A stretch of 64,000 nucleotides of DNA, taken from positions 5,208,001-5,272,000 of the forward strand of contig CM034549.1 in NCBI GenBank assembly GCA_020055645.1, in the 5' to 3' direction. Below are positions 976 to 55,885 of this stretch, one piece after another. Source of the DNA: Tomocerus qinae (lineage: Eukaryota; Arthropoda; Collembola; Entomobryomorpha; Tomoceridae). Below the pieces are notes generated by a model. It did not search any database. It was given only the letters and a program-made list of their open reading frames with translations, and was not told the origin of the DNA. The position numbers were made by a program, and so were the translations under genes. Numbering within the stretch: the first letter of the stretch is position 1; each line of letters opens with the position of its first letter.

Positions 976-3900
976 AAGAAAAAGGCTGCTACATCTGACG
1001 TTCATTGGACACCATCCGAAATAGCAATGTGTGAACTTCTTACAAACAGTCATAAGCCGTGCCATATTTCTTCAATAATGATCACAAAAACTTGTCGCCA
1101 GGTAAATTCATGTGTTTATCACAGTCATAGTCATAAGGCTATGTTCCATCCAAAAGTGACTCAGGTGGGAATTAGAATGCATAAAATAAAAATAAAAATT
1201 GTGGAGTAATTATTATAAGTTGTTATGATTCAAATGCTCATTTTCGCCTGGGAATTGGGAGTGTGGGTTAGTACACTACTATTTTGGTGTTTTGCCTGAC
1301 TCCATATTTCGATCAGTTGTAGTGATCTTTTTGTGGTGCTTTCTGAAAAAAGATCACGGTAGACAATCGACAACCAATAACGTTTGGACTTTCGCAGACC
1401 ATTTTGTACAAACTACATTTCTTTAATTATTTTATGGGTATTCAGCCACTTTTTGGATGAAACTTGTCAATGAAACATCACCAATGTGTATGATAGTCTC
1501 TTACACTAATGTTTCAATATTCTGCGTTTATTATTTAAATTATCGTACCAACAAAAGTTTATTTATTTAGCTAAATTAGCTGTTTATGTGATTTAAATCA
1601 TATATTGAACTGGTGAGATAACTGTCTAATACTACTGTTTTGTTAATTTTATAGATTTGGAAATTTCTTGAAACAAATTCACCTAATTCTTTGAAGCAAA
1701 TCAGTAGTGAATCTTTCAGACATGTTAAAGATGATAGGAAAGAAAATGATATTGGTGAGAAGTATGTGCGAGTGCGCCCAAAGGAGTCCGGTGATATTCC
1801 TCACTACCAGCCATGTGTACATGCAGATAACGGAGCTTGTAATGCAAAAAATAATTGTTACTGTGTTGAAGGTGCTACGTACTGTGAACGATGGTGTTGT
1901 TGCCCTCTTGATTGTAGGTTTATCCCGAAAATATAGTATCTCAATCTTTTATTTAATATTGTTTGCATTTTCCTGTACCTCTTTGAAAAGTATCTTAATA
2001 TAAGATAATTTTATTATTTATTTTAAATTTTTGTTTGCAGGCATATTTTATTAATAGCTTACCGACATTTATTAATCAACTTTTGAAATTCTTAGGTCCG
2101 AGGCGCTTTAAGGGTTGTACCTGTAAAACAAATTGTGGTACACCAGCTTGCCCATGTTATGTAGCTCATCGAGAGTGTGATCCTAGACTGTGTCGTCAAT
2201 GTGGTTCAGAAAATACAGACCCTAATTCACAAAGATGTCGAAACGTGGGTATTCAGCACAACTGGGGTAATTGAAAAAATAAATGGTTTACGGTATGCCA
2301 TTCAAAATGAAAGGGTAGCAGTTTTGAAAGAACGAGTAGTTTTTGTCTTTGTAAGAAGGTTACTTATTAGTATTTATATTTTGAAGGTCCTTAAAAATTG
2401 TCTGTCTCAATCTCAACTTCAGATCACGGATAACTTGTATAAAATATGTCGTACATGGGCGTAGTGACGTCTTGTATATATGCAAATGGATGAAATAATT
2501 TATACAAGATCCGAATACTCTCAATCTCTGTGTCAATCTCTGTCTCTTCAATTATCAGTATCACCGACCATGTAATATTAATTGTGTGTGATGTATTGAA
2601 GACCACATAATATCTTAAGTATTTCAACAATTTCAACTTCTTCGACTTGATAAGCGGGGCAACAAGTGTGATCTTTCTATATATTTAATTAATAGTTGAT
2701 TAATATTAATGTATTAGAATAATTAATATTAATAATTAAATGTGATATTATTTCACTGTTGGTAGTTAATTAACTAAGTTGCCTCTCTCACAGGAAAGCC
2801 AGTAGAAGTGAAGATTTCCAAAGTGGTTGGCTGGGGTGGTTTTATCGGTTGCGAAGCCCTACCGGGAGAACTGATCTCTGAATATCGAGGAGAAATTATC
2901 TCTAATACCGAATGCGAAAGACGTGCTCTTTATTATGATAAAATTCAGCACACTTATCTCTTCACTTTGAATCAAAGTTAGTTTGTCTGCATAAGATCGA
3001 TTGAATTTTAAAAGCATGAACTCATAACAGTTTGTATTTATTTATTCTTCAGATTTTGTAATTGATGCAACTAGAATTGGTTGTCGGGTTCGATTTATCA
3101 ATTCGTCAAAACATCCTAACTGTTATGCCAGAGTAATGATGGTTAATGGAGACCACCGAATTGGAATATATGCTAAAAGAAAAATTGCTGCTGGGGAAGA
3201 ACTTTTCTTTGACTATGAACACGGTATGTTTTAAAGAGATCCATAATTTTTTAAAGGGGGTATCGAGTGTGGAGGTGGTTATTCGAGCTAAGGGTGGTAA
3301 TAAAAAAATTTAAGATCAAATCAAAAGTGTGGAAATTAGACTATTGTCCCGGCGAGGTTGGCTTCCCCAAATGTGCAAAGAAAACTTATTATTATATATT
3401 TAGCTCGATAGCATTCAATGTACGAGTTTTTGGGGAAACCACTTTTTTAGCCAGTTGAATAATATTAGTGTTCTTGCAAAAAACCTGTAATATTATATTA
3501 CTTAATTGTCACAAAATCAATTTTCAGCATTACTTTGTAGCCACCCTGTCACTATTTTTGTCTATTTTCTGATCGAACATAATAGAAGTAATTTACTTGT
3601 CAAGTAGCAAGTCAGAAAGGAGGCAAAATAGTGAAAATTTATTTTCTAGACTTATAACAGACAGAAAACCATTTGACTTTATTTCCTGACGTTGCATCTA
3701 ACCGATTTTTTGCTATAGTATGTTTTGCTCCTATATAATTTATAACATACTTTTCATACCCCAATACCCGATACCCTTATTTTCAAATTGTAAGTATCCC
3801 CACTTCTAGATTTTGAATTTAAATGTGGCAGTTTTATTTAGAGGTTTTTTCGGGACTTGGAAGTAAAAATCCCCATATTTTTCTTTCGCTACCAATATGG

Positions 3901-4080
3901 AAAATGGTTATGGACAAACTATTATGAATTTTGATTTTGATCATCATAATATTTCTTTTAGCTGCATTCATTAATTCGTTTTTTGAAAGCCTATTAATTT
4001 TTACTTTTACAGTGGTCAATAAACCAGTTAAAAGGAAACGAGGAAGAAAACCTCGAAAACCTCAAAAAATCTCAAATTAA
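976..4080 (+). CDS. E(z)/EZH2-like SET-domain protein, C-terminal half (six exons), divergent
   Basis: Partial gene, with 5' exons outside the window. Exons are 976-1101, 1655-1913, 2096-2266, 2794-2976, 3053-3223 and 4013-4080; every junction is GT/AG and keeps phase, giving 325 residues. The first exon matches the second SANT region of E(z) and ends in KTCRQ. Exons 2 and 3 encode the Cys-rich CXC (pre-SET) domain, with HYQPC, CPCY and RECDP. Exons 4 and 5 encode the SET domain, with [26 protein letters not shown] and GEELFFDY. E(z) is the catalytic subunit of PRC2, which methylates H3K27. Oddities: the family NHS motif reads NSS, the DKY of EZH2 reads DKI, one CXC cysteine (CKNC) reads CRNV, and the usual ending after FFDYRY is replaced by a lysine/arginine-rich tail containing [10 protein letters not shown] infer a diverged paralogue rather than the standard orthologue; catalytic activity is doubtful. 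It converges on Ack. Confidence 0.88.
1102..1654 (+). other. E(z)-like intron
   Basis: GTAAAT donor and TTTATAG acceptor. Nothing else is recognised within it. Confidence 0.8.
2267..2793 (+). other. E(z)-like intron
   Basis: GTAATT donor and CTCTCTCACAG acceptor. It contains a short AT-only stretch around 2680-2750 made of repeated TTAATATTAA-like words and no coding signal. Confidence 0.8.
3224..4012 (+). other. Last E(z)-like intron
   Basis: GTATGT donor and TTTTACAG acceptor. No hidden exon resembling the missing E(z) post-SET tail was found on reading through it. This supports the unusual basic C-terminus encoded by 4013-4080. Confidence 0.7.
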
Positions 4081-5176: not shown

Positions 5177-16028
<10,852 letters not shown>

Positions 16029-34100: not shown

Positions 34101-37100
34101 CCCTCCCACAAACCAAAAAAAGATTTTTATTAGCTCCACGTAGTCTCCACTTCCCCACCCATCCCCCTCCCACAAAGCAAAAAAAGTTTAATAAGCTCCA
34201 CATAGTCTCCACTGGCCCGCCCATTCCCCTCCCACAAACCAAAAAAAGATTTTTATTAGCTCCACGTAGTCTCCACTTACCCACCCATCCCCCTCCCACA
34301 ATGTAAAAAAGTTTTTTATTAGCTCCACGTAGTCTCCACTTACCCACCCACCCCCCTCCCACAATGTAAAAAAGTTTTTTATTAGCTCCACGTAGTCTCC
34401 ACTTCCCCACCCAAAACCCGCCCCATAACAAAAATAATTTTTTCATCAACCCAGTTGTACAACATTTGCGTATTTAATATATAGAGACTAACTCTAACTG
34501 AGGCCTAAAATATATATGAATGTATGTGAAAATTGAGGGAAATATGAGATATGATACAGCTGCCATCTCTTGTTCTGTTCTGTTACTTATTCGCTCGGCT
34601 CAGTCTATTCACTGTATTGCATTTCTTCCAATCCCAATAGCCTGTATCTCCCAACCAACATAACAACCAAAACCTTCCCTACTACGCACACATTGCCTGC
34701 TATATCATCGTCTCTCTCCTCCTCCAACTCGCGCATGATCAGAACGCAAAAGTCTACGGCATTCCGTAATTTAATAATATGAGATGTGAAAATTGAGGGA
34801 AATATGAGATATGATACAGCTGCCATCTCTTGTTCTGTTCTGTTACTTATTCGCTCGGCTCAGTCTATTCATATATACTTGCTTATATCTCGATTACAGC
34901 CTTGGCGGGAGCGAGCCTCGACAAATACACTATATTTTCCTCCCAAAAAATTAGAAATTTCTGCTCCAAAATTACATTTTTTTTTCTGTTGAAAACCTAA
35001 GTTTACTATAAGGAAGAATTCTCTTTTCCATATTTCCTCGTAAATTTGTTTTCAAAAATTAGTAAATTAGTGAATTTTTGATAAATTCCAAATACGAACT
35101 CAAAATCAAGAAAACAAATTCTCTAGCTCTGGACTTATCTACCGCTTTGGAAATCTGGCAACAGTTAGAGGCAGTTTCAACTCAAAACAGAGATAAGTTA
35201 AATTTTCTTGTATATGTACGCTAAGGGTATCAGCTCCTTTCCGTTGCATTGAGTCTGTGAGATACTGGCACAGCTTTACGTTTCTATCTAGAACTGAAGG
35301 ATGTCGGGAAAAGGAAAGAAACTGAGCCAAAAACGTAAGAGTGTATCATCCCTACAACCAGAAGCAGATAGGAAGAAGAAAAGCAAGACGTTGTCAGTTC
35401 CTGTTCATGATGACTTAGAATCTACAAATTACACCGATACTGAAATGGAAGAAGATGAAGATGACCTGAAGACTGTATTAAAAAATATGAATGCCAAACT
35501 ATCAAGAATTGATGAAAATGTCATAAAGATGAATAAATCCTATGCCAAACTTGAAAATCATGTGCTGCAGTTAGAAAATAAAGTCCAGTTTCTGGAACAC
35601 AAAGTTGACCGTCTCGAAACTGAACTTCGAAATCGAAATATTCTTTTTATGGGGGTGCCAGATGATGCTTCCGAAACTCAAGAAGAATGCTTTAACAAAA
35701 TAACCCATCTCATTGAAAATACACTGCAACTTAACGGTATTCAGATTGACATTGCACAACGTATATCAACCCATACTACAGGCAAAACAAGACCTATCAA
35801 AGTTCAACTAGTCAAACAAAGTGACTGTATTTCTGTGATCGCAAATGCTCATAAATTGAAAAATGAAACCGGAGGCGGCCGATCCACTTACATAGTTAGG
35901 GACTTGCCAGTCAACGTACGAATTGCCAGAAAACTCCTTCATCAGAAGCAACAAGACTGCCGTTCGAAAAATATCGTCGCAACAATTAATTACAGTGCAA
36001 ATGAAATAAATGTGAATGGCCAAATCTTCAAAGTGATCAACAAGTCTCTAGTTCAAAAACAAGTTACCGTATTAATCGATTTAGTTCCCCAGGGGAACTC
36101 CCATTTGGAGACCATTTTTTGGTCAAAAATATTCTTATAGCTCCCCACATGGGGAATTATTATGATATGGGGAACTATATTTCGAATGGCAAATTAAAAA
36201 ATTTCAATGTCAAATTTTTGTATTATATCAAAGCAAAATAAAATTGTTGATATAGTGAATGAGCATATTAGTAGGAATTTAGATTTCAACGTCGTCGTCA
36301 GAGGATAGAGATACGTCCATAAGTTCGGTTAGATCAAAATTCATTTCTTCGTCATCCTTGTCATTCTACTTTACAAACTTTACCACCTTTTAGCCTTTTT
36401 TACCATCACAGTGGTATAAATGCTTTTAATGGTACAAATGGTAAATTATAGTGCAGAGATACACAAACGACAAATTAAAATAAGTTTTCATGTTCTATTT
36501 TCTCTAAAATAATTCTAATTAAGATTTATATTTGAATGTCCACTGAAGTAGTGAAATAACCATTTAAACGACATTATTCGCTTGGTATACAACCAACTTT
36601 TATTTAATTAGAAAAAGTACTCATTTAATTAAAATTAATTATTTAGTAAGGATGATTTTGTCCCAATTAGTTGATCCTTTCTTGGATGAATTAACACACA
36701 TTAAGTTGGGCAGTCAATTTAGTATAACAATCGTCAAACGGTATTTTATGTATTAGTGTCGAATTTTATTCAAAACTGTGTACGTAATTTAAATAAAACT
36801 ATTTGTTACCATTTCTTACCAGCTCTATCATTTACCACCAATGTTTAGGTGGTGGTAATAATTAAATACCATTAAAAACCACTTACCAATCATATGTGGT
36901 AAATAGTATTTTGTACACTGGTTGGCGCTGACTGGGTACAGATGCACTGGCTGAGTACAGATTCACTGATTTGATTTGTATAATAATATGGTTCTTATGC
37001 CTTTAATTTAGGATTTTAGGGTGGGGAACTATTTCGATATGGGGAACTAAACATTTGGATTGCCATATTTTCCCAAATTTACTCATTTAGTTCCCCAACT

Positions 37101-40100
37101 GGGGAATTATTGCGATATGGGGAACTAATTCGATTAATACGGTATGCAACAACCCCGTGGAAATGAAGGACCTGTGCCGAGTGGATCTTCTGCTTTTTTA
37201 GGGAAGTAAAAAATAATACCTCAATAAATTGTAAGTTCCTAAAAATAAGTCATTTAAATTGTCAATCATTACGAAATAAGGTTTTTGAGGTTAAAAATTT
37301 TATTGACAGTAATTCTTATGATATATTCTGCGTTAGTGAATCCAACTTAAAAGATACTTCTAAATCACCAAAATTTAAGGGATATAAATTATTTAGGAAA
37401 GACCGTGACGAATTTTCAGGGAGGGGTGTTGCTATCCTATGTAATGAAAGTTTAAAGACAAGTCCTTACGAATTTAAAAATATTAACACAAACTGTAACA
37501 AAAATACAGAATATCTGGCTATCAATGTGCAATATAAATATTATAAAACTTTTATTGTTGTATGTGTATATAGGAAACCTGACTACACTAAGCAGTGCAT
37601 AGAAAATGATATGCAACTTTTTGAAAACATGCTTTCTGATCTGGTAAATAGTGGTAAGATATTTTATATTTATGGAGACTTTAATCTCAGAACTTCAATC
37701 TTACTAAATAACTTTAATGAACTTATGACTGAATTTAACAGTGTACAATTAGTGGATAAGCCAACTAGAGGTAATAATATTCTTGACTTGTTCGTAACAA
37801 ATAATCCTAATAATATTTTAAATGTAAATATAATACCTCCACACATTTCCGACCATTCTGCAGTTGAATCTGTGATTAACTTTAAGAAACCTCCGATCCC
37901 AACGAAGCAAATCACATATAGGAATCTAAAAAATGTTGATGAAATGCAAACAGCTGAGTTAGTGTCGGAGTTAGACTTTGTGGTGACAAAGTTTGATAGT
38001 GCTGAAAATTTAACGGATAACCTTTGTAAAAATATAATTAAAGTAATTGACCAAGTTGCGCCTTTAAAAACAAAAGAAATCAGAATCAAAAAGAAATTGA
38101 TTTTGTCAGAAAACACTAAAAATTTAATCAGACAACGTGATGAGTTTTATAAAATGTACAAAAGAAATAAGTTTGTTACTGATGGAATTATGCTAAGAAT
38201 TCTTAATAAGTATGTTAAGAAATCTATAAGAAATGACTCTAAGGATCAGTTTACTTCCAGTGTTGCCAAACTAGGACTACACAAATCTGTAGAAAACCTT
38301 ATCGAGTTAAAAAATAATAATAAGAATGTAATAGATATGCCAGCTAAGGAAATCAATAGTCACTTTGCTAAAATTAGTACTACGGATATTACTACAATAC
38401 AATTACCTAATAAGCCTGTTGAGTTACCTACTGTAAATCATACTTTTAAGCTACACTATGTTCAATATCCTGAAATGTTGTTTGCTCTTAAAAAAATCAA
38501 AAAAAGAACCACTTGTACATTAGATGCTTTATCACTCTGTCCAATGTACTTCAATATACTCTTATGTAATCCAATATTTAGTAACTATGTTCATGATATA
38601 ATTAATATTAGTATAAAATCGGGTAATTTACCAAAAACATTGAAAGTGTCCAAAATTATACCGATTCCAAAGATTGATAATCCTTTGTTACCTGTACATC
38701 TAAGACCTATTTCTATACAGTGTTTCCTTTCGAAAATAATGGAAAAATGTATTCATGCACAATTACTTAAACATATGACTGAAAATGATGTACTACATGA
38801 AAGACAGTTTGGTTTTCGTAAAAACCACTCAACAATGCATGCACATGTAGCCATTACTGACATATTATTTAGAGAAATATCAAATGGTAATATATGTATT
38901 GTCCTTGCACTAGATATGGCCAAGGCATTTGACAAAACAAATTGTAACATTTTATTGCATAAACTTGAATGGTATGGAATCGATAAACACTGGCTAGAGT
39001 CATATCTTACTGGTAGAGGTCACTTTACGTATGTAAATGAAAATAATGTTTCAGATGTAGAAAACATAAATCTCTCAGTCCCCCAGGGGTCAATACTTGG
39101 ACCATTATTATTTACTTTAATGATAAATGACCTTCCGTATCATGTAAAGCAATCTCTAATGTTTTTATTTGCAGACGATAACACTATTATTGTAAGTGGT
39201 AGACCAGATGACATTTATGTACTTAAAGAAAAATTAGAGTCCGATATTAATAGTATATTAGATTGGATGAAGTCAAATTATATGGAAATTAATGCAGATA
39301 AGACTGTAATGATGATAGCGGGTAGACCTTGTGCTGTTGAGAGTCTCAAAAACTTTACTGTGAATGTTGGTAGTGAACAAATAACTCCTTCAGATAGTAT
39401 AAAAGTTTTGGGTTTACATATTGATTCCAATTTAAAATTTGGTTTACAGATAACTAATATGAAATCTAAGTGTAATCCTATTATAATATCACTGTACCCT
39501 TTTAGATATTTACTAACGGAGCAAAATCGACTTCTCATTATGAATGCATACGTCCAACCTATTATTAATTATATGTCAATCATTTGGGGCACGGCTTCAA
39601 ATGAAAACATTAAGTGTGTTGAAAGAATAGTAAGACTAGCTGGTAGATTTGTTTTATTGGCCCAAAAGTTTGAAAGTGTGAAAGAACAAATAACAATTAA
39701 GCTAAAATGGTTATTCCCTAAATACCAATATAAGTATGAATTGTGCAAACTAATATATAGCATTATGATTAATGAATGTCCCCCGTACTTTAAAAACTAC
39801 TTGTCGTTTGATATATCTAATACTATGACTACTAGAAGTAAGACCTATGTTAAATTGCATGTGGATGGGAATGTTGATGCATTCGGTAAACGTAGTTTTA
39901 CAGAACAGGCTTATAAGTATTGGCACAGTATCCCAGTTGATATTAGAAATTGTAATTCAAGTAAACTATTTAAAAGAAAGTTAAAAACATTTTTGTTAGA
40001 AGAGCAACTTAAAGAGACTGATCTTCCATTATCAGTCGTACCTTGTGATCTTACTTGCATTGATTCTGTTTGTAACAATTTGAATGACTCATTTCATTGT

Positions 40101-43100
40101 AATTAACTACAACAATTTCGTTTGCTAACCGTGTAATTTTGTAACTTAGAGGGTTTCCTTTTTCCTGTCGAAAAATTATATTCTAAATTAATACAAGTGT
40201 TTTTTGACAGCTGTACAATTGCCTCCGTGTGAGGAAGCAGTATGATTCGAAATAAATAAATAAATATTCACTGTATTGCATTTCTTCCAATCCCAATAGC
40301 CTGTATCTCCCAACCAACATAACAACCAAAACCTTCCCTACTACGCACACATTGCCTGCTATATCATCGTCTCTCTCTTCCTACAACTCGCGCATGATCA
40401 GAACGCAAAAGTCTACGGCATTCCGTAATTTAATAATATGAGATGAGATGAGATGTGAAAATTGAGGGAAATATGAGATATGATACAGCTGCCATCTCTT
40501 GTTCTGTTCTGTTACTTATTCGCTCGGCTCAGTCTATTCACTGTATTGCATTTCTTCCAATCCCAATAGCCTGTATCTCCCAACCAACATAACAACCAAA
40601 ACCTTCCCTACTACGCACACATTGCCTGCTATATCATCGTCTCTCTCCTCCTCCAACTCGCGCATGATCAGAACGCAAAAGTCTACGGCATTCCGTAATT
40701 TAATAATATGAGATTACTAAAAGTAGCCAAATATTTTGTAGTCAATGATTGTCGTATCGTGTATTGCATTTGACATGCTTTGTTTATTGTTAATAAATGC
40801 TAATGCTAAAGACTGTCTGTCTACGATATACAATGACACCACAGCAAGTTACTCCCTGTGAGCCTTCGTTTACAGGAGTGATTTTGATTTTGTGGTATGT
40901 TTGTTGTGTAGCAGTGGGTGGGTGTGTGCTTAGGTTGGTTATAGTGGGTAAATGACATAATCTTGGGTAATAGAACATGACTGCATTCATTATTTTAAGC
41001 CAAAGCATGAAAGACTGTTATAAACAACAATAATGTAATATCCTGAAATAAAATTATCTTGTAAGAACAGAGGTACAGAGTCTGAATATTGAAATAAACG
41101 AGAACTGCTACCGCAAGCCATAATTTCGATAGTAAAATGCAGTTTGTGTAAACGTGAACAAGGGAGCATTCACAAAATGGTTAATATCTATGAAAATGTA
41201 TATCTGGTCTGACTACCGGAACAAACTGAACTGTGTAAGCAGAGCCATGCCAAGTCAGCAAAAACTAAAAGTTTGCTCTCAAAAAATCTATAGATTATAC
41301 CTAGAAAGGACTGTGACTCTCGTCCTAAGTAATACTTATGCGTTATTGCTATGGCTGATAAAACTAAAAGTATCAGAACTAATGCTACTTCCCTACTCAG
41401 GCAGCCCGCAGTACATAATATTATTCCGGTCATCATTCTCATGATAGTAGTACTTATGTTCCGCAGTTCTTAGTATTGAATCACATTGTACATCATAATC
41501 ATTGTTATATAAATGTCTAGTCCGGCCTAGTCATTTAATGCCTACTTACGCAAACAGTAAACGGAGCAACTAAAGCCTTCCTTCCATTTGCTTTTCCACC
41601 ATCATCCATCAAAATTATTGTGAATACAAAGGCAATGACTTTTCCTACCTACATTTTATGAATTTGTTCCACATAGATAAAATTTCATTTGCAGTAAACC
41701 TTTTAGTCTCTCTTCCGCAAATCTATTCTGCCAAACTGCTTCCTCCGTGTCTTCTTCTGCATAGTCCACTAATAACAAATCGATATCCCTTCACATCATT
41801 GGCAAAGCGATCAATACAACCTATTAAAATTAGTTCGTGAATTTCCACATGCAAAGTAGTCACAAAACATCTCACAATTCACTATGCTTTCAAAATATTT
41901 AAATACTGTACTTTTTAATTTTCGTGATCTTGTAGTAACTGGAGTAATTTGGAAAATCACGCTTCGTGATTGATACTTTCATTTTCAACTAATTCTCCTA
42001 TAATTAGCATTGAAAAAATCCAATCTTAAATAAATGTTTACATTTAGCTGCATGGCCCATGGCCATTAAGATTGATTAGTAATACTTGTACTTCTGATAA
42101 ATAGATCTTAAACTGAAGGTCCTGATATTTAAGAGATACTTTACTGTAATCAATTTTCAATAGCGTTTGAGAGAACGTGAATAAAAATTGTGTAACGACA
42201 GAGTAATGTGAATGTTGACAACAAAGCAAAAGGTTGGATGATATTGAGACAGTTTCTTTTGTTTTGTGTGTTAAAAGACAAAGTACAGGAGAAATTAATT
42301 CTTGTGAGAAAATGTATCTGATTGTTTTGTGTTTGTGTATCATGGCTTTTGACTCATGGGATCTTGCCATGACTTTTGGTTTTACGATAGCTAGGTTGGC
42401 ATGAGTTGTCAGATGCTGGCAGACCTTACTCAGCTGTCTGTCGGCAGTTTCTGTCAGTTTTTCTCCTTACAAGACAAGAATCCCAGGGCCAGGCGAAGTA
42501 AAAGTTTATTTTTGGGTTTCTTCCTTCGTTTTTTGCTCAGATATCTATAAAAGTCAAAGTTTTTACGGCAATTTGAAGCAAAGTAACCAATACGTCTTGT
42601 CAGTAATGTGTGTACACAGAGCAGAACGTTATGCTATAGTGTTCACACTATGTGTAAATGTGTCCAATAGAAAAGGACTGTTTTTATTCTACCACACGAC
42701 AACTTTGGCTCTTGCCGTGATTCTTTTTATACATGAATTCTCATCACAACTGCTGACTTTGTCTCAAACTAGAGTAAAAAAAGGAGCTCTCACATCTCTC
42801 GACACTCTCGTAAATGATATTACACTCGCCACGTGTATAGGCATTATGATTGTCACTATCTATAAGCTATAATTGCTAGGAGATGAACCCACATATTCAA
42901 GTATAGTATATATTACTAGTTTACGAGTGTAATGATAGTAGCTGAAATGTATGACATGGCTGATACAAGTAGAAAAGCAATAGAATTACATTTAGGTGTA
43001 CATTATCATTTTTTGTCCAATTAGCTGTGGTGTACTAGTTGTAGTAGGATGACTTGGAGCTAATAGGAATTTCATCCTATCTCCCTTAAGTAGTGTTTGC

Positions 43101-52100: not shown

Positions 52101-55100
52101 TACAGGTTCAATTCCAATTAGGCAGCCGATTTCAGGACAGACATTTTTTCCCTCATTTCCTTTAGCGCATTTCACTTTATTCTCTCATCATAATCACAAC
52201 AAAGTACAATTCGTGCGTCTATTATAACAATGTGTTGATTTTATGGACAAGTAGGTGTACAATGAAATTTTAAATATGGTCATGTATTGTTTAAATTGAA
52301 CTGATTGAAGATGCACGATGAGCATAGAGCGTAAATACGCTGGCCGCCCAAAGCGAATCGAAATTCTCAGTGAAGATTCAGACGTGTTAGCACACCAAAA
52401 CGAAAAAAATCGAGGAGGGACCGAGCCGCGATTATCATTTTGTCAGAGACTATTAAATCGTCTTAGGAATTTCTTCCGGGGAATTTTCTCGAAAAGATCT
52501 GCTCACAGAAATCGAAGAGTGACTCCTGGTATATCGCATAAAATGAGTGGCTTGCCTAAATTAAGTAAAAACATAAATTCGAATAAAACTCTTCGGAGAG
52601 TCTCCACAATTGAACCAAGCTCAATGACACTGGCTGCATTAATGAGACAAGAATTTACCGTGGGGAATAAGGGTTTGCAAAATTCTATTGCCAATTTTGA
52701 GAGAAGAAGCGTTACCATCAAAATGGCGATGGAAATTCAAGAAAATCAGAGATTAGAAGCCATGAAAGGTCGTTACGAAGTCAGCAGTTCCAATCCTGAA
52801 GGCATTTTTGAAAATCCTGAATTTCATGTTGATGGATTTATACCTAGAACTCGCCGTGGACGAAGAGTTACAGAAGAGACTTCAGAGGATGAAATTCCTA
52901 TCAATGTATAAAATTTCTTTGGCATTCGTCACGCAGTCTTATGTCCAATTTCTGGGGAAAGATTTCGCCCCAAGTCTCTCTCAATTTTATAACATGAATT
53001 GTACCAGAGCAATGTAACTGAAATGAATTAATTTTCTTCAATGTATTCTAATAGTCAAACTGAACATACTAAATATTCATGCATATATCGACATATATTT
53101 CCCTTCAAGTTTGATGAATTCATAAAAATTTTTGTTTACCTTTCCGCACTAAATCCGTAAATCCTCCTGCAGTTTATTTATTGCATTCGCGAATAGCAGA
53201 CTTCAATAGTCACAAAATTATATATATTTTGGCAAGTTTGAATTGTCTTCTTCGGGGATCTTCGGGAAAATCTGTAGCATGTACATTATAGCACATAGGA
53301 AATTCCATGCATGTTAGATTTACATTTGTTAGGTTTGTAGGGTGGGGCTTTTAGTCTGAAATCTGGCCGATATTTTGATATAGTTAGAGAAATCTAGGTG
53401 AGATATTGTTGAACATAAAAATGTTATTGTGACAAATTGTGAGGATCTGAGACGAGAGAGGGTTGATAGATGAAAGAAAAATTCGATAATAAGTTACTAA
53501 AATGTTTTTTGTGTTGTTTTGCAGAATTGGTTCTAAAGCAGGAGCAGGAAGAATACAAACGGGAAGGAATTGAGTGGACACATATTGACTATTTCAACAA
53601 TCAAGTGATTTGTGACTTGGTCGAATTACCGCACAAAGGAATAATTGCCATCATGGATGAAGCCTGTCTTTCAGTTGGGAACATTACGGACCAGACATTG
53701 TTAGATGGAATGGACCGTAACTTAAAAGGTCATCCGCATTATACTAGTCGTCAAGTGAGCCCTTCAGACAAAACTTTGGCTCATGCACAAGATTTTAGAA
53801 TCAAGTAAGGGAAATTATCTAGTAATAAAAATTATGGAGACATCATTTTATGGAAATTATACTAATTGTGTGTAAATTGAAATTAGGCATTATGCTGGAG
53901 ATGTAGTTTACAAAATAACTTCATTCCTGGACAAAAACAAAGATACTTTGTTTCAAGATTTGAAAAGAATGCTGTACAGTTCTAAGAATTCTATAATTTC
54001 CGATATGTGGCCGGATGGTGCTCGGGATATCACTAAAACAACAAAACGACCAATGACCGCTGGGACTATCTTTAAAAACTCAATGGTTTCACTCGTAAAG
54101 ACACTGGCCAGTAAAGAACCCTATTATGTCCGCTGTATCAAGCCGAACGATGCAAAATCACCGAGTCTTTTCGATAAGGAAAGAGTAGAGCATCAAGTAG
54201 CTTATTTGGGATTGATGGAAAATGTCAGAGTGAGAAGAGCCGGTTTTGCCCATCGAACTCCTTATGACAGATTTGTTCAACGATACAAAATGCTCTCTAG
54301 GAAGACTTGGCCCAATCCTAAAAGGAACAATATGAAGGATGCCACCTCAGCTATCCTTACGGACAGGAATTTAATTAATGATGTAGCTTTTGGAAATACA
54401 AAAGTTTTCATCCGTCATCCTCAAAGTTTGTTTGAATTAGAGAAGGTAAATGTTTGTAACTTTTGTGTGCGAAATTCAATGAGAACGACCATCTAAAAAT
54501 GTTGAAAAAGAAATCTAATACAATTATTTATTTTGTAATTTTTTCTAGACTCGTCAAGCAATGATTCCAGGTATTGTGACCTTTTTACAAAAATTATGGA
54601 GAGGATACTTAGCCCGAGAGCAATACAAACGAATGAGAGCGGTTCATCGAATAATGGGGGCATACAGAAAATTCAAATTGCGATCTTGGGTGTCGGCAAC
54701 ACAAAAAACACTTGGCTTCCCCACATCCACCGTTCCAGGAATTCACAAAGGAAAAGTTCCAGTACCTCGTTGCGGTCTTCAAGTAAATTGGCCAAAAGCT
54801 CCGGGGCCTCTGCGAAGAGTTGTTGGTATTATTCAAGCGGCTTACGGGCGTTGGTGGGCTTTACAAATCCTCCGAAGAGTTCCAGAACACGATTGGCCAC
54901 AATTACGTCTTAAGATATTCTGCGCCACTGAACTTATCAAAGGTCGACGACAGAACTGGGGTCTTAATAGGGATTGGAAGGGAGACTACCTGTTGTCCGA
55001 AGGTCTTAATCAGTCTCGAGATTATCAACAGAGTGTCCAGAAACTGCAAAAGAAAGATAAGTTCCGACAAGTAATTTTCAGCTCAAGAATTCTTAAGGCG

Positions 55101-55885
55101 ACGCCAGGCAGCGCGGGAAAATGTGCAGAAAGGTCCATTTTGGTCACAGACACCTCAATTTATAAGCTAGATGGTCCTAAAGGGACGTTCAAGGGAATGA
55201 AAGCGCCCATCCCTCTTAGTCAAGTTACAGGCATCACGATAACCCCCGGGGACGATCAACTCACAGTTGTCCATCTGACAACGGGAAGAGATATGGTCGT
55301 TGCTCTGCATTGTGGATCAGTTCAAGGAGTCAGCTCTTGGGTTGTTAGTGCACCGAACGGTGGACCTTCTCCTGATTTAACTGGAGAATTCATCACCATG
55401 ATTGCCACTCAATGCCTGAGGTACATTTTCTCGAAAAAGATTTAAAACTTTGGGAAGAGATAGATCAAGTAATTAATTTGTAATCTCTTTTGAACAGATA
55501 CAACGGTAATCCGATTCAAATAAATGTAACTCCAAATGTGGAATGTAAATTGGGTAGGAGATCCACGAGTATTCGTGTCCAGTTCAACGAATCTGCCGTT
55601 CCTATATTTACAAAGGATGGAGCTAACAGTCTAATCCTGACTTGGCCACAGACGCCACCAAATACTCGACCTACTTCTGGAAGACAACCACTAAGCAATG
55701 CCCTAGGAAATAATACCAATATTTCTAATGTGAATGGCAATGGAAACTACAATGGTAATGGCAACGTAAGGAATGGCCACAACAATAATTTCCACTCGGC
55801 AACTGGAAAGCCGAATTTGCCACCGCCACCAATTCCACAAAGAATTCAATCTACACAACGAACAAACGGATATAATAACTATTAA
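25124..55885 (+). CDS. Myo31DF: Unconventional class I myosin, Myo1D/Myo31DF type, complete
   Basis: Actin-based motor; the fly orthologue sets left-right asymmetry. Exons: 25124-25212, 45653-45759, 45947-46362, 51002-51247, 51437-51809, 53525-53804, 53887-54445, 54549-55420, 55498-55885, summing to 3,330 nt (1,109 aa). All junctions are GT/AG and in phase. The start exon encodes [20 protein letters not shown], matching the N-terminus of fly Myo31DF, and has an ACAATGG context. Motor motifs: P-loop GESGSGKT (100-107), switch I NSSRFGK, switch II DIYGFE, and the [16 protein letters not shown] relay, which is split by an intron. The neck has two IQ-like motifs from about 697 ([12 protein letters not shown] and a second at [10 protein letters not shown]). 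The TH1 lipid-binding tail runs to about 1035, with WPQLRLKI and IYKLDG. A further 70-odd Asn/Gly-rich residues ending with PPPPIPQR extend past the usual Myo1D end. There is no SH3 domain. Intron 1 is 20.4 kb and repeat-filled. Confidence 0.95.
25213..32515 (+). other. Myo1D intron 1, 5' part
   Basis: AT-rich intronic DNA without recognisable exons or transposon ends, apart from one perfect hairpin listed separately. Short open frames (for example 29625-29876) lack protein-like features. Confidence 0.6.
30226..30255. repeat. Perfect 13-bp stem hairpin
   Basis: CAGTTTGGATGAA, a 4-nt loop ACTC, then the exact reverse complement. It lies inside Myo1D intron 1. It could be an RNA hairpin, a dimeric binding site or a transposon footprint; the sequence alone does not decide. 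Confidence 0.6.
32531..32547. repeat. Short hairpin at the left edge of a repeat block
   Basis: CCGTGAC, loop TTC, GTCACGG: a perfect 7-bp stem, embedded in a relatively GC-rich phrase (about 32515-32555) just before the pyrimidine-rich minisatellite. Similar short hairpin phrases occur at the ends of some non-autonomous arthropod transposons, but no matching right end or target duplication could be fixed. Confidence 0.4.
32640..34440. repeat. Roughly 60-bp minisatellite, degenerate to homogeneous
   Basis: Head-to-tail copies of a pyrimidine-rich unit containing AGCTCCACGTAGTCTCCACT, a C-rich run and an A-run. Units from about 33850 to 34440 (around ten) are very alike. Those from 32640 to 33850 are increasingly diverged, with variable spacing. 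Near 34030-34260 two variant units (CACGTAG...CCCCACCC and CACATAG...CTGGC) alternate, which indicates duplication of a two-unit block. Because the unit is close to a multiple of three, long repetitive open frames appear on the minus strand; these are artefacts. Confidence 0.85.
34526..34871. repeat. 260-bp tandem repeat, copy A and left part of copy B
   Basis: Copy A spans 34526-34785, starting GTGAAAATTGAGGG and ending TAATAATATGAGAT. Copy B starts at 34786 and is cut at TATTCA (34866-34871) by the LINE. Copies A and B agree base for base over the shared left part as far as I compared. Confidence 0.85.
36067..37142. mobile_element. 1,076-bp TA-flanked inverted-repeat DNA element nested in LINE ORF1
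   Basis: Bounded by TIRs that match over 25 bp with one mismatch, beginning CCGTATTAATCGA and ending AGTTCCCCA, and flanked by TA on both sides (36065-36066 and 37143-37144). Subterminal copies of TGGGGAACTA occur in both orientations. There is no full transposase. One short acidic frame on the minus strand (about 36280-36370) could be a remnant, but this is weak. A TA target is typical of Tc1/mariner and pogo-like elements, and removing the element plus one TA restores the LINE frame. Confidence 0.85.
37194..37200 (+). promoter_or_regulatory. Putative -1 ribosomal frameshift heptamer
   Basis: T TTT TTA in the ORF1 frame is a canonical X XXY YYZ slippery site, three codons before the ORF1 stop (37207-37209). 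Slipping back one base enters ORF2 exactly. I did not identify a clear downstream pseudoknot. Confidence 0.55.
37194..40106 (+). CDS. LINE ORF2: APE endonuclease plus reverse transcriptase
   Basis: Open for 970 codons from the TTTTTT run at 37194. The endonuclease begins with [10 protein letters not shown] and SES, then YGDFNL and SDHSAVE (the Asp/Asn and His catalytic motifs). Next comes the reverse transcriptase, with [36 protein letters not shown] and FADD at 39168-39179, and a C-terminal region. These enzymes nick target DNA and copy the RNA onto it. The frame has no ATG before the one in ENDMQLF, which would cut off the endonuclease start. The frame is -1 relative to ORF1, so translation probably depends on the upstream ORF. 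No stop was seen in ORF2. Confidence 0.9.
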   Translation, partial: FFREVKNNTSINCKFLKISHLNCQSLRNKVFEVKNFIDSNSYDIFCVSESNLKDTSKSPKFKGYKLFRKDRDEFSGRGVAILCNESLKTSPYEFKNINTNCNKNTEYLAINVQYKYYKTFIVVCVYRKPDYTKQCIENDMQLFENMLSDLVNSGKIFYIYGDFNLRTSILLNNFNELMTEFNSVQLVDKPTRGNNILDLFVTNNPNNILNVNIIPPHISDHSAVESVINFKKPPIPTKQITYRNLKNVDEMQTAELVSELDFVVTKFDSAENLTDNLCKNIIKVIDQVAPLKTKEIRIKKKLILSENTKNLIRQRDEFYKMYKRNKFVTDGIMLRILNKYVKKSIRNDSKDQFTSSVAKLGLHKSVENLIELKNNNKNVIDMPAKEINSHFAKISTTDITTIQLPNKPVELPTVNHTFKLHYVQYPEMLFALKKIKKRTTCTLDALSLCPMYFNILLCNPIFSNYVHDIINISIKSGNLPKTLKVSKIIPIPKIDNPLLPVHLRPISIQCFLSKIMEKCIHAQLLKHMTENDVLHERQFGFRKNHSTMHAHVAITDILFREISNGNICIVLALDMAKAFDKTNCNILLHKLEWYGIDKHWLESYLTGRGHFTYVNENNVSDVENINLSVPQGSILGPLLFTLMINDLPYHVKQSLMFLFADDNTIIVSGRPDDIYVLKEKLESDINSILDWMKSNYMEINADKTVMMIAGRPCAVESLKNFTVNVGSEQITPSDSIKVLGLHIDSNLKFGLQITNMKSKCNPIIISLYPFRYLLTEQNRLLIMNAYVQPIINYMSIIWGTASNENIKCVERIVRLAGRFVLLAQKFESVKEQITIKLKWLFPKYQYKYELCKLIYSIMINECPPYFKNYLSFDISNTMTTRSKTYVKLHVDGNVDAFGKRSFTEQAYKYWHSIPVDIRNCNSSKLFKRKLKTFLLEEQLKETDLPLSVVPCDLTCIDSVCNNLNDSFHCN
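40271..40714. repeat. 260-bp tandem repeat, right part of copy B and copy C
   Basis: The remainder of copy B is 40271-40454. It carries a few substitutions and two extra GAGAT units at its end. Copy C is 40455-40714 and looks nearly identical to copy A. With the LINE and one TATTCA removed, the array is a head-to-tail run of three copies. Confidence 0.85.
40715..45652 (+). other. Myo1D intron 1, 3' part
   Basis: AT-rich intron with no exon recognised. It includes the CRE/CCAAT palindrome at 43936-43960 and ends with the acceptor TTTATATCTTTAG before exon 2. Confidence 0.6.
43936..43960. promoter_or_regulatory. CRE flanked by inverted CCAAT boxes
   Basis: A 25-bp near-perfect palindrome: CTCGCCAA, then TGACGTCA (43945-43952, the consensus CRE), then TTGGCGAG. 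The arms carry CCAAT on opposite strands, and a TATTTAAA stretch follows within a few bases. It lies 1.7 kb upstream of Myo1D exon 2. This could be an internal promoter or enhancer; function is inferred only. Confidence 0.4.
46363..51001 (+). other. Myo1D intron 3
   Basis: A 4.6-kb intron between FHSFYQ (exon 3) and LLSGGS (exon 4). No hidden exon, RNA gene or transposon end recognised. Confidence 0.65.
51810..52317 (+). other. Myo1D intron 5, upstream of the nested ORF
   Basis: Intronic DNA of about 500 bp from the GTAAGA donor to the nested ORF. An in-frame TGA at 52306-52308 just precedes the nested ATG. A promoter for the nested ORF, if it exists, would be here, but none is obvious. Confidence 0.5.
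52318..52911 (+). CDS. Single-exon ORF of unknown family nested in a Myo1D intron
   Basis: A 197-residue frame in the intron between 51809 and 53525, on the same strand as Myo1D. The start is ATG with an upstream in-frame TGA. The N-terminal third is very basic, with a hydrophobic/arginine stretch ([16 protein letters not shown]). The middle has [10 protein letters not shown], a possible basophilic kinase site, followed by a probable helix ([20 protein letters not shown]). The C-terminus has RTRRGRRV then acidic TSEDE. No known domain, signal peptide or membrane segment is seen. Its length and richer codon composition contrast with the surrounding AT-rich intron, so chance is unlikely. There is no poly-A tract to mark a retrocopy. 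Confidence 0.6.
   Translation: MSIERKYAGRPKRIEILSEDSDVLAHQNEKNRGGTEPRLSFCQRLLNRLRNFFRGIFSKRSAHRNRRVTPGISHKMSGLPKLSKNINSNKTLRRVSTIEPSSMTLAALMRQEFTVGNKGLQNSIANFERRSVTIKMAMEIQENQRLEAMKGRYEVSSSNPEGIFENPEFHVDGFIPRTRRGRRVTEETSEDEIPINV
52912..53524 (+). other. Myo1D intron 5, downstream of the nested ORF
   Basis: Intronic DNA ending in TTGTTTTGCAG before exon 6. No canonical AATAAA on the plus strand was noticed after the nested ORF. Confidence 0.5.

Follow-up and report, generated by a model that had tools for sequence, protein, structure and literature searches.

The locus and its gene model

The window (the whole 64,000-nucleotide stretch analysed here) covers positions 5208001–5272000 of Tomocerus qinae contig CM034549.1, which we refer to as C4, in a genome of 334 Mb and 115 contigs. 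Its first 4,080 nucleotides carry the last six exons of an E(z) paralogue. The full model, built using DNA upstream of the window as well, has 10 exons and 656 codons with no internal stop, and each of its nine introns is bounded by GT-AG; exon 1 and the acceptor of exon 10 are predicted. The initial annotation had described the stretch 2794–4080 as an E(z)-like methyltransferase with an altered catalytic motif and a replaced C-terminus; this stretch corresponds exactly to the last three exons of the model (2794–2976, 3053–3223 and 4013–4080), joined in frame across GT-AG introns. The parts of the gene are as follows (EZH2 numbering for residues):

window −2552 to −146 (L046 6448–6592, 7311–7872, 8476–8639, 8733–8854): exons 1–4, upstream of the window; gene model
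1–975, +: remainder of intron 4; gene model
976–1101, +: exon 5, SANT2-like stretch, ending TKTCRQ; gene model and EZH2 alignment
1655–1913, +: exon 6, end of SANT2, linker and first half of the cysteine-rich pre-CXC region; gene model and EZH2 alignment
2096–2266, +: exon 7, CXC domain (PF18264, 29.9 bits, cut-off 23.3); gene model and Pfam
2794–2976, +: exon 8, N-terminal half of SET, with Y641 kept, C642R, Y661I, C663H and S664T; gene model and EZH2 alignment
3053–3223, +: exon 9, C-terminal half of SET, with NSS at 3100–3108 (Ser689 codon 3103–3105), A687I, V691K, R727E and Y728H; gene model and alignment
3962–4012, +: candidate longer last exon, from a weaker acceptor in the same frame, with 17 extra residues; acceptor score
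4013–4080, +: exon 10, 22-residue basic tail and stop, with AT-hook-like KRGRKPRKP at 4036–4062, replacing the post-SET tail; gene model

Intron 1 of the gene contains a MITE-like inverted repeat (L046 6690–6891), its two 66-nt arms being 95% complementary and 70 nt apart. A neighbouring gene on the minus strand (window 5434–7674) combines a GTPase_binding domain (PF09027) with a stretch resembling SH3, as expected for an Ack-type tyrosine kinase.

Four E(z) genes in one genome

Genome-wide searches, for which the queries were the window protein and two Pfam families specific to E(z), give four E(z) genes for which complete models could be built: a canonical gene on C2 (882 aa) and three diverged genes on C1 (775 aa), C3 (758 aa) and C4 (the window copy, 656 aa). 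The C2 protein has the NHS motif and the normal post-SET tail (GPTEQLKFVGIEREM; YGPTEQLKFVGIEREMDFL), and is thus the second, intact E(z) for which the initial annotation had suggested looking; its description of the window gene as a ‘diverged E(z) paralogue’ was right. All three diverged proteins read NSS. Three paralogues with the altered motif, a change that is most likely ancestral to them and a parallel duplication of EED all go beyond what had been noted before.

Against PDB sequences, the canonical copy matches EZH2 with 883 bits and the window copy with 288 (287.7 bits, E 1.5e-84, over 531 residues, 104–634 of the paralogue), and each of the 15 PDB sequences that match the latter with E of 1e-60 or less is EZH2 or EZH1. 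Over the 210 positions of the CXC–SET region, identity to EZH2 amounts to 179 residues for C2, 129 for C1, 114 for C3 and 109 for C4. An LG+G4 tree of this region, rooted with EZH1 and EZH2 as outgroup, unites C1, C3 and C4 in a clade (bootstrap 98, 100 replicates); trees that place C1 with the canonical gene (AU p = 0.0145) or with the vertebrate pair (p = 0.002) are rejected. The three paralogues also have in common ten derived residues, present in no canonical or vertebrate sequence, at EZH2 positions 528 and 541 together with C642R, K656L, C663H, S664T, H689S, V691K, F711Y and R727E; six of the ten lie adjacent to the active site. Taken with the last intron common to the three genes (see below), the clade and the derived residues lead us to think that His689 was most likely replaced once, along with its surroundings, before C1, C3 and C4 separated. 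The active-site region was rebuilt, and the post-SET tail lost, in a single diverged copy, from which the three genes then arose.

As a control, 20 SET loci were fetched from the genome, with the motif pattern near the match, on either strand, in 13. Two of these patterns (L013, L018) are on the strand opposite the SET match; the other 11 comprise eight NHS, the canonical E(z) included, and three NSS, which are the C1, C3 and C4 copies themselves. A search of viral contigs with the SET domain returned no relative.

If an offset of up to two alignment columns is allowed and identical phase is required, 6 of 9 introns in C4, 7 of 9 in C3 and 6 of 8 in C1 match introns of the canonical gene. The window gene is therefore not a retrocopy, and we set that origin aside. 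That we are looking at a decaying gene, a gene-model error or an assembly artefact is scarcely credible, even with a first exon and a last acceptor that are predicted: the four models are open with GT-AG introns, pN lies far under a saturated pS, and an AT-hook tail is present in C3 as well. An assembly error behind the NSS motif, which the initial annotation had named as something that would overturn its reading, is spoken against by the occurrence of the motif at three separate loci with different codons (TCT for Ser689 in C1, TCG in C3 and C4). On the open gene models, pN below pS and the three-gene clade together, we reject both assembly error and pseudogene.

For C3 against C4, 649 codons give a pN of 0.309 and a (saturated) pS of 0.762; the 210 CXC–SET codons give 0.193 and 0.769, respectively. 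Synonymous sites are saturated in every pair of E(z) genes and amino-acid sites are not, such that a dN/dS ratio is unusable; this same pattern points to purifying selection, and the diverged genes, open throughout, look to be constrained by it.

Duplication of E(z) within one genome is known from vertebrates, where EZH1 and EZH2 both have NHS; in Tomocerus qinae just one of four copies does. Several E(z) genes per genome are also found in the multigene families of plants. The plant copies are active H3K27 methyltransferases, and are not known to have an NSS-type motif change or an AT hook. Insect genomes, as surveyed in PMC5459927, almost always have a single E(z): its Table 1 gives 0 to 2 copies in every genus row, and springtails are absent from the table. 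Set against these insect counts, four E(z) genes are unusual, as is a set of one normal and three co-derived copies, the latter with a SAM-cleft residue replaced. In the literature searched, with most subscription papers outside it, we found no report of E(z) copies in springtails or of an AT-hook tail on E(z).

Domains and their conservation

As in E(z), EZH1 and EZH2 (KMT6, the catalytic subunit of PRC2), the window protein has CXC and SET domains and stretches resembling SANT2 and SAL/SRM. Its SET domain scores 69.9 bits, and SET and CXC both exceed their Pfam cut-offs. Neither MCSS nor SANT1 is matched by the window protein with an E-value of 1 or less; for the C3 and C1 proteins, MCSS scores above its cut-off and SANT1 below. 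The MCSS cysteine pairs (FCPRCLMYCCLTH and CPYPDC) are nonetheless kept and aligned in the window protein, as is a SAL/SRM-like stretch (YRVEDGEYLQNYPYLEE).

Comparing C3 with C4, we see that conservation is highest in SET (82/116), followed by CXC (60/95), SAL/SRM (31/52) and SANT2 (29/59), with SANT1 (46/96), MCSS (35/75) and pre-SAL (36/100) forming the lower blocks. Between C4 and the canonical gene the N-terminal half is poorly conserved, with 8/88 identities in pre-SAL and 17/74 in MCSS. Figures such as these, alongside the lack of an MCSS or SANT1 score in C4, could mean that the protein works outside PRC2 altogether, its CXC, SET and AT hook acting alone and its N-terminal EED- and SUZ12-binding parts being vestigial. 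We consider this improbable, given that the SAL/SRM-like stretch and the MCSS cysteine pairs are kept and aligned, that MCSS still scores in C3 and C1, and that EED has also been duplicated.

The active site

We set the EZH2 numbering by the NHS motif, and it is consistent with the residue numbers given in PMC7000746. On this numbering the window copy has Ile for Y661, Ile for A687, Ser for H689 and His for Y728, with Y641 and Y726 kept, all as the initial annotation had read them from the letters; alignment likewise bears out its Ser at His689, within codons 3100–3108. The motif is thus NSS where active H3K27 methyltransferases have N-H-S in the SAM cleft. Position 687 differs among the paralogues (Ala in C1, Val in C3, Ile in C4), F724 is Tyr in C1, and Y728 is lost in C1, C3 and C4. 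Tyr661 is lost in all three (Ile in C4 and C3, Val in C1), as is Tyr111 (Ser in C4, Ile in C3, Leu in C1).

Kept in all three are V621, W624, Y641, F667, A677, R685, N688, S690 and Y726, of which we take W624 and R685 to be pocket residues. Y641, F667, Y726, A677, N688, S690 and V621 are described as channel, cofactor-cleft or interface residues in the part of PMC7000746 available. The window copy and E(z)/EZH1/EZH2 thus have Y641, F667, A677, N688 and Y726 in common, and differ in Ser689, in the ten derived residues common to C1, C3 and C4, in the loss of Tyr111 and Tyr661, and in the AT-hook-like tail that stands in place of the missing post-SET tail. C642R and R727E are present in all three paralogues, beside Y641 and Y726, and being of opposite charge might form a new salt bridge.

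What such changes do to catalysis can be approached through EZH2 mutants. H689A is called catalytically deficient in the accessible text of PMC4741719, making it a sound comparison when the initial annotation invoked it as a catalytically dead mutant, and H689R is reported, in the available part of PMC7000746, to abolish activity. Within the literature searched, itself seen in part, we found no published assay of Ser at position 689. The contact between Tyr111 and Tyr661 in EZH2 is tied to activation and to inhibitor binding, according to the portion of PMC4853478 available; from the same source we would predict that the changes at both tyrosines lower sensitivity to pyridone EZH2 inhibitors. 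Judged from sequence, the methyltransferase activity of the window copy is probably reduced or changed.

The extreme case is a dead scaffold or decoy: a protein that joins PRC2-like complexes yet transfers no methyl group, H689 and the post-SET segment being gone, and that occupies EED and SUZ12 or holds chromatin through its CXC domain and AT hook. We see this as a real possibility, nearly as likely as the variant complex discussed below, because the reported H689 substitutions inactivate (PMC4741719, PMC7000746, both as far as their accessible text goes). Impaired or abolished activity in H689A and H689R (same partial sources) is what it leans on, together with the loss of Tyr111, Tyr661, Tyr728 and the post-SET tail. 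It sits less easily with the retention of Y641, F667, A677, N688, S690 and Y726 in three genes, in a SET domain that is the best conserved block; and with six of ten derived changes adjoining active-site positions, the pattern looks like remodelling more than drift. Active-site positions are not significantly better conserved among the three paralogues than the remainder of SET (10/13 versus 53/104, Fisher p = 0.14).

A replaced C-terminus

The window protein ends in a tail of 22 residues with a net charge of +10 and the core KRGRKPRKP. Its acceptor at 4013 scores 10.1 with a matrix derived from the other 35 acceptors of the four models, the full set of 36 (4013 included) ranging from 3.7 to 12.6; a second acceptor at 3962, in the same frame, scores 6.5 and would add 17 residues ahead of the same tail. 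Searching the plus strand of the window from 3224 to 64000 for a normal post-SET tail, we obtain a best match of 19 against 30, 22 and 23 in three shuffles, the canonical gene being 100, and so find no hidden normal last exon there. The initial annotation's claim that the usual tail had given way to a 22-residue, basic, AT-hook-like one therefore holds.

Its AT-hook reading finds independent support in C3, whose last exon, after the equivalent intron, encodes IIKKSEDGGETSRRRGRPKSSKTEVSKAVKSSK with the canonical core RRRGRPK. Of the three derived genes, two (C3 and C4) thus have a C-terminal AT hook or a sequence like one; the last exon of C1 encodes a short, near-neutral tail (+1) without an AT hook. 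Among 3340 short acceptor-to-stop tails drawn from the window and the four loci, the pattern [KR]GR[PK] occurs in 11, and the stricter combination of [KR]{2}GR[PK] with a charge of at least +7 in five, each of which is a nested version of the tail of C4 or of C3. The Pfam AT-hook model matches none of the four E(z) proteins at E up to 1.

The core of an AT hook is Gly-Arg-Pro flanked by Lys or Arg. The tails described here have, like AT-hook proteins such as HMGA, a short basic Gly-Arg core, in this case at the C-terminus; C3 has the canonical RGRP, whereas the window copy reads RGRKP, with GRKP instead of GRP, and is better called AT-hook-like than canonical. MLL and ASH1 also carry AT hooks. 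Evolution has here added an AT hook, or a core resembling one, to E(z).

The structure of the last intron offers a route to this exchange. In C1, C3 and C4 it is in phase 1, 13 coding bases past the start of the Asp codon of a DY pair; in the canonical gene it is in phase 2, after eight (L045 6579/6877; 3223/4013 in the window gene). A donor moved five coding bases on, from phase 2 to phase 1, would leave the former last exon in the wrong frame, and this could be how the loss of the post-SET tail began.

Partner subunits

With a stretch of human EED as query, we find a canonical EED on C5 (C5:8121246–8122116, L067; 53–71% identity in the individual pieces), along with three diverged places at 45–54%, two on C1 (C1:21339427–21340118, L069; C1:21296006–21296696, L072) and one on C3 (C3:28890984–28891431, L071). 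Five further matches, at 25–32%, look like other WD-repeat genes. The C1:21339427 and C3 copies have open frames across the five WD exons that the comparison covered, are 48–63% identical to canonical EED per exon, and differ from each other by a dS of 0.171 and a dN of 0.048 (ratio 0.28, 313 codons). The place at C1:21296006, 43 kb from its neighbour, has a stop in one exon and is 99.8% identical to C1:21339427 over 1,400 bases, with no mismatch and three gaps; it may stem from a very recent duplication or from the assembly, and is left out of the gene count. EED is thus present as one canonical and two diverged copies, and its having been duplicated in parallel with E(z) points to a module more than to a lone stray gene.

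We aligned the aromatic cage by eye, and the cage residues presumably fall where we place them within the aligned sequences; at these positions the diverged copies have aromatics throughout, with F97 as Tyr, Y148, W364, and Y365 as Phe, the last being Phe in the canonical copy too. The cage residues are those given in the accessible text of PMC7000746. Using the Pfam model and the genome's own sequence as queries, the VEFS box of SUZ12 is found at one place only, so a dead scaffold of the kind set out above would need to share it, in keeping with a decoy role.

A proposed variant PRC2-like complex

The window gene belongs to an old, apparently lineage-specific E(z)-like subfamily. The reading that we tentatively favour, whilst putting it somewhat short of probable, is that its product takes the place of E(z) in a PRC2-like complex of variant composition, in which methyl transfer is altered or weak and an AT-hook tail makes contact with DNA. 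In such a complex the window protein would probably be accompanied by an EED-like subunit and the common SUZ12; the SET domain would be retained because its cofactor and substrate pocket is still used, methyl transfer being changed or weak; and the AT-hook tail would keep the complex on DNA, replacing the post-SET segment. Counted for it are homology to EZH2, the SET and CXC scores, the six introns matching canonical ones, the clade with its ten derived residues, the intact frame, pN below pS, a SET domain better conserved than any other block in the C3–C4 comparison, the pocket residues kept, the likeness of the C3 tail, the EED-like copies with aromatics at cage positions and the single SUZ12 VEFS box. 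It has to be weighed against the behaviour of H689A and H689R, which destroy or strongly cut activity (PMC4741719 and PMC7000746, in their available parts), the Tyr111–Tyr661 contact lost in all three paralogues, the active-site comparison at p = 0.14, the weak conservation of pre-SAL (8/88), and MCSS and SANT1 models that do not reach C4.

A bolder version, which we regard as rather unlikely, extends this variant complex to a second Polycomb-type complex, assembled from a duplicated and diverged pair of E(z)-like and EED-like subunits sharing the single SUZ12. Here the SET site would have been re-engineered once (H689S with C642R, C663H, V691K and R727E) towards a different product, substrate or cofactor-sensing role, and the AT-hook tail would provide the complex with a DNA address of its own. 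The Tomocerus qinae genes offer a natural test of whether the histidine of NHS, the standard dead-mutant position, can be replaced if its surroundings change too.

Other features of the window and genome

Further along the plus strand of the window there is a non-LTR retrotransposon-like stretch (35298–40106). Its first open frame, of 280 codons, has coiled-coil-like matches; the second, of 979 codons, matches reverse transcriptase and, below cut-off, an endonuclease. Beyond it, at 53876–55445 on the same strand, an unconventional myosin resembling class I is represented by exons for the end of the motor, an IQ motif and the TH1 tail. Rfam at gathering thresholds gives no match in the whole window. 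In the genome, no match above cut-off was obtained for biotin-synthase or carotenoid-desaturase, acquired genes of the kind seen in mealybugs and aphids.

Mitochondrial cox1 is present, whole or in part, in several copies in the assembly (C1:36670928–36672268, L065; C1:139.1–139.9 Mb; C81; C11). In a nuclear mitochondrial copy, cox1 is followed by a leucine tRNA (anticodon TAA, read by eye) and then cox2; ARAGORN reports no tRNA at this place. The assembly also contains an 18S gene of ~1.82 kb; so short an 18S, along with this mitochondrial gene order, suggests a hexapod or crustacean. One of the cox1 copies can be read from end to end without a stop using the invertebrate mitochondrial code.
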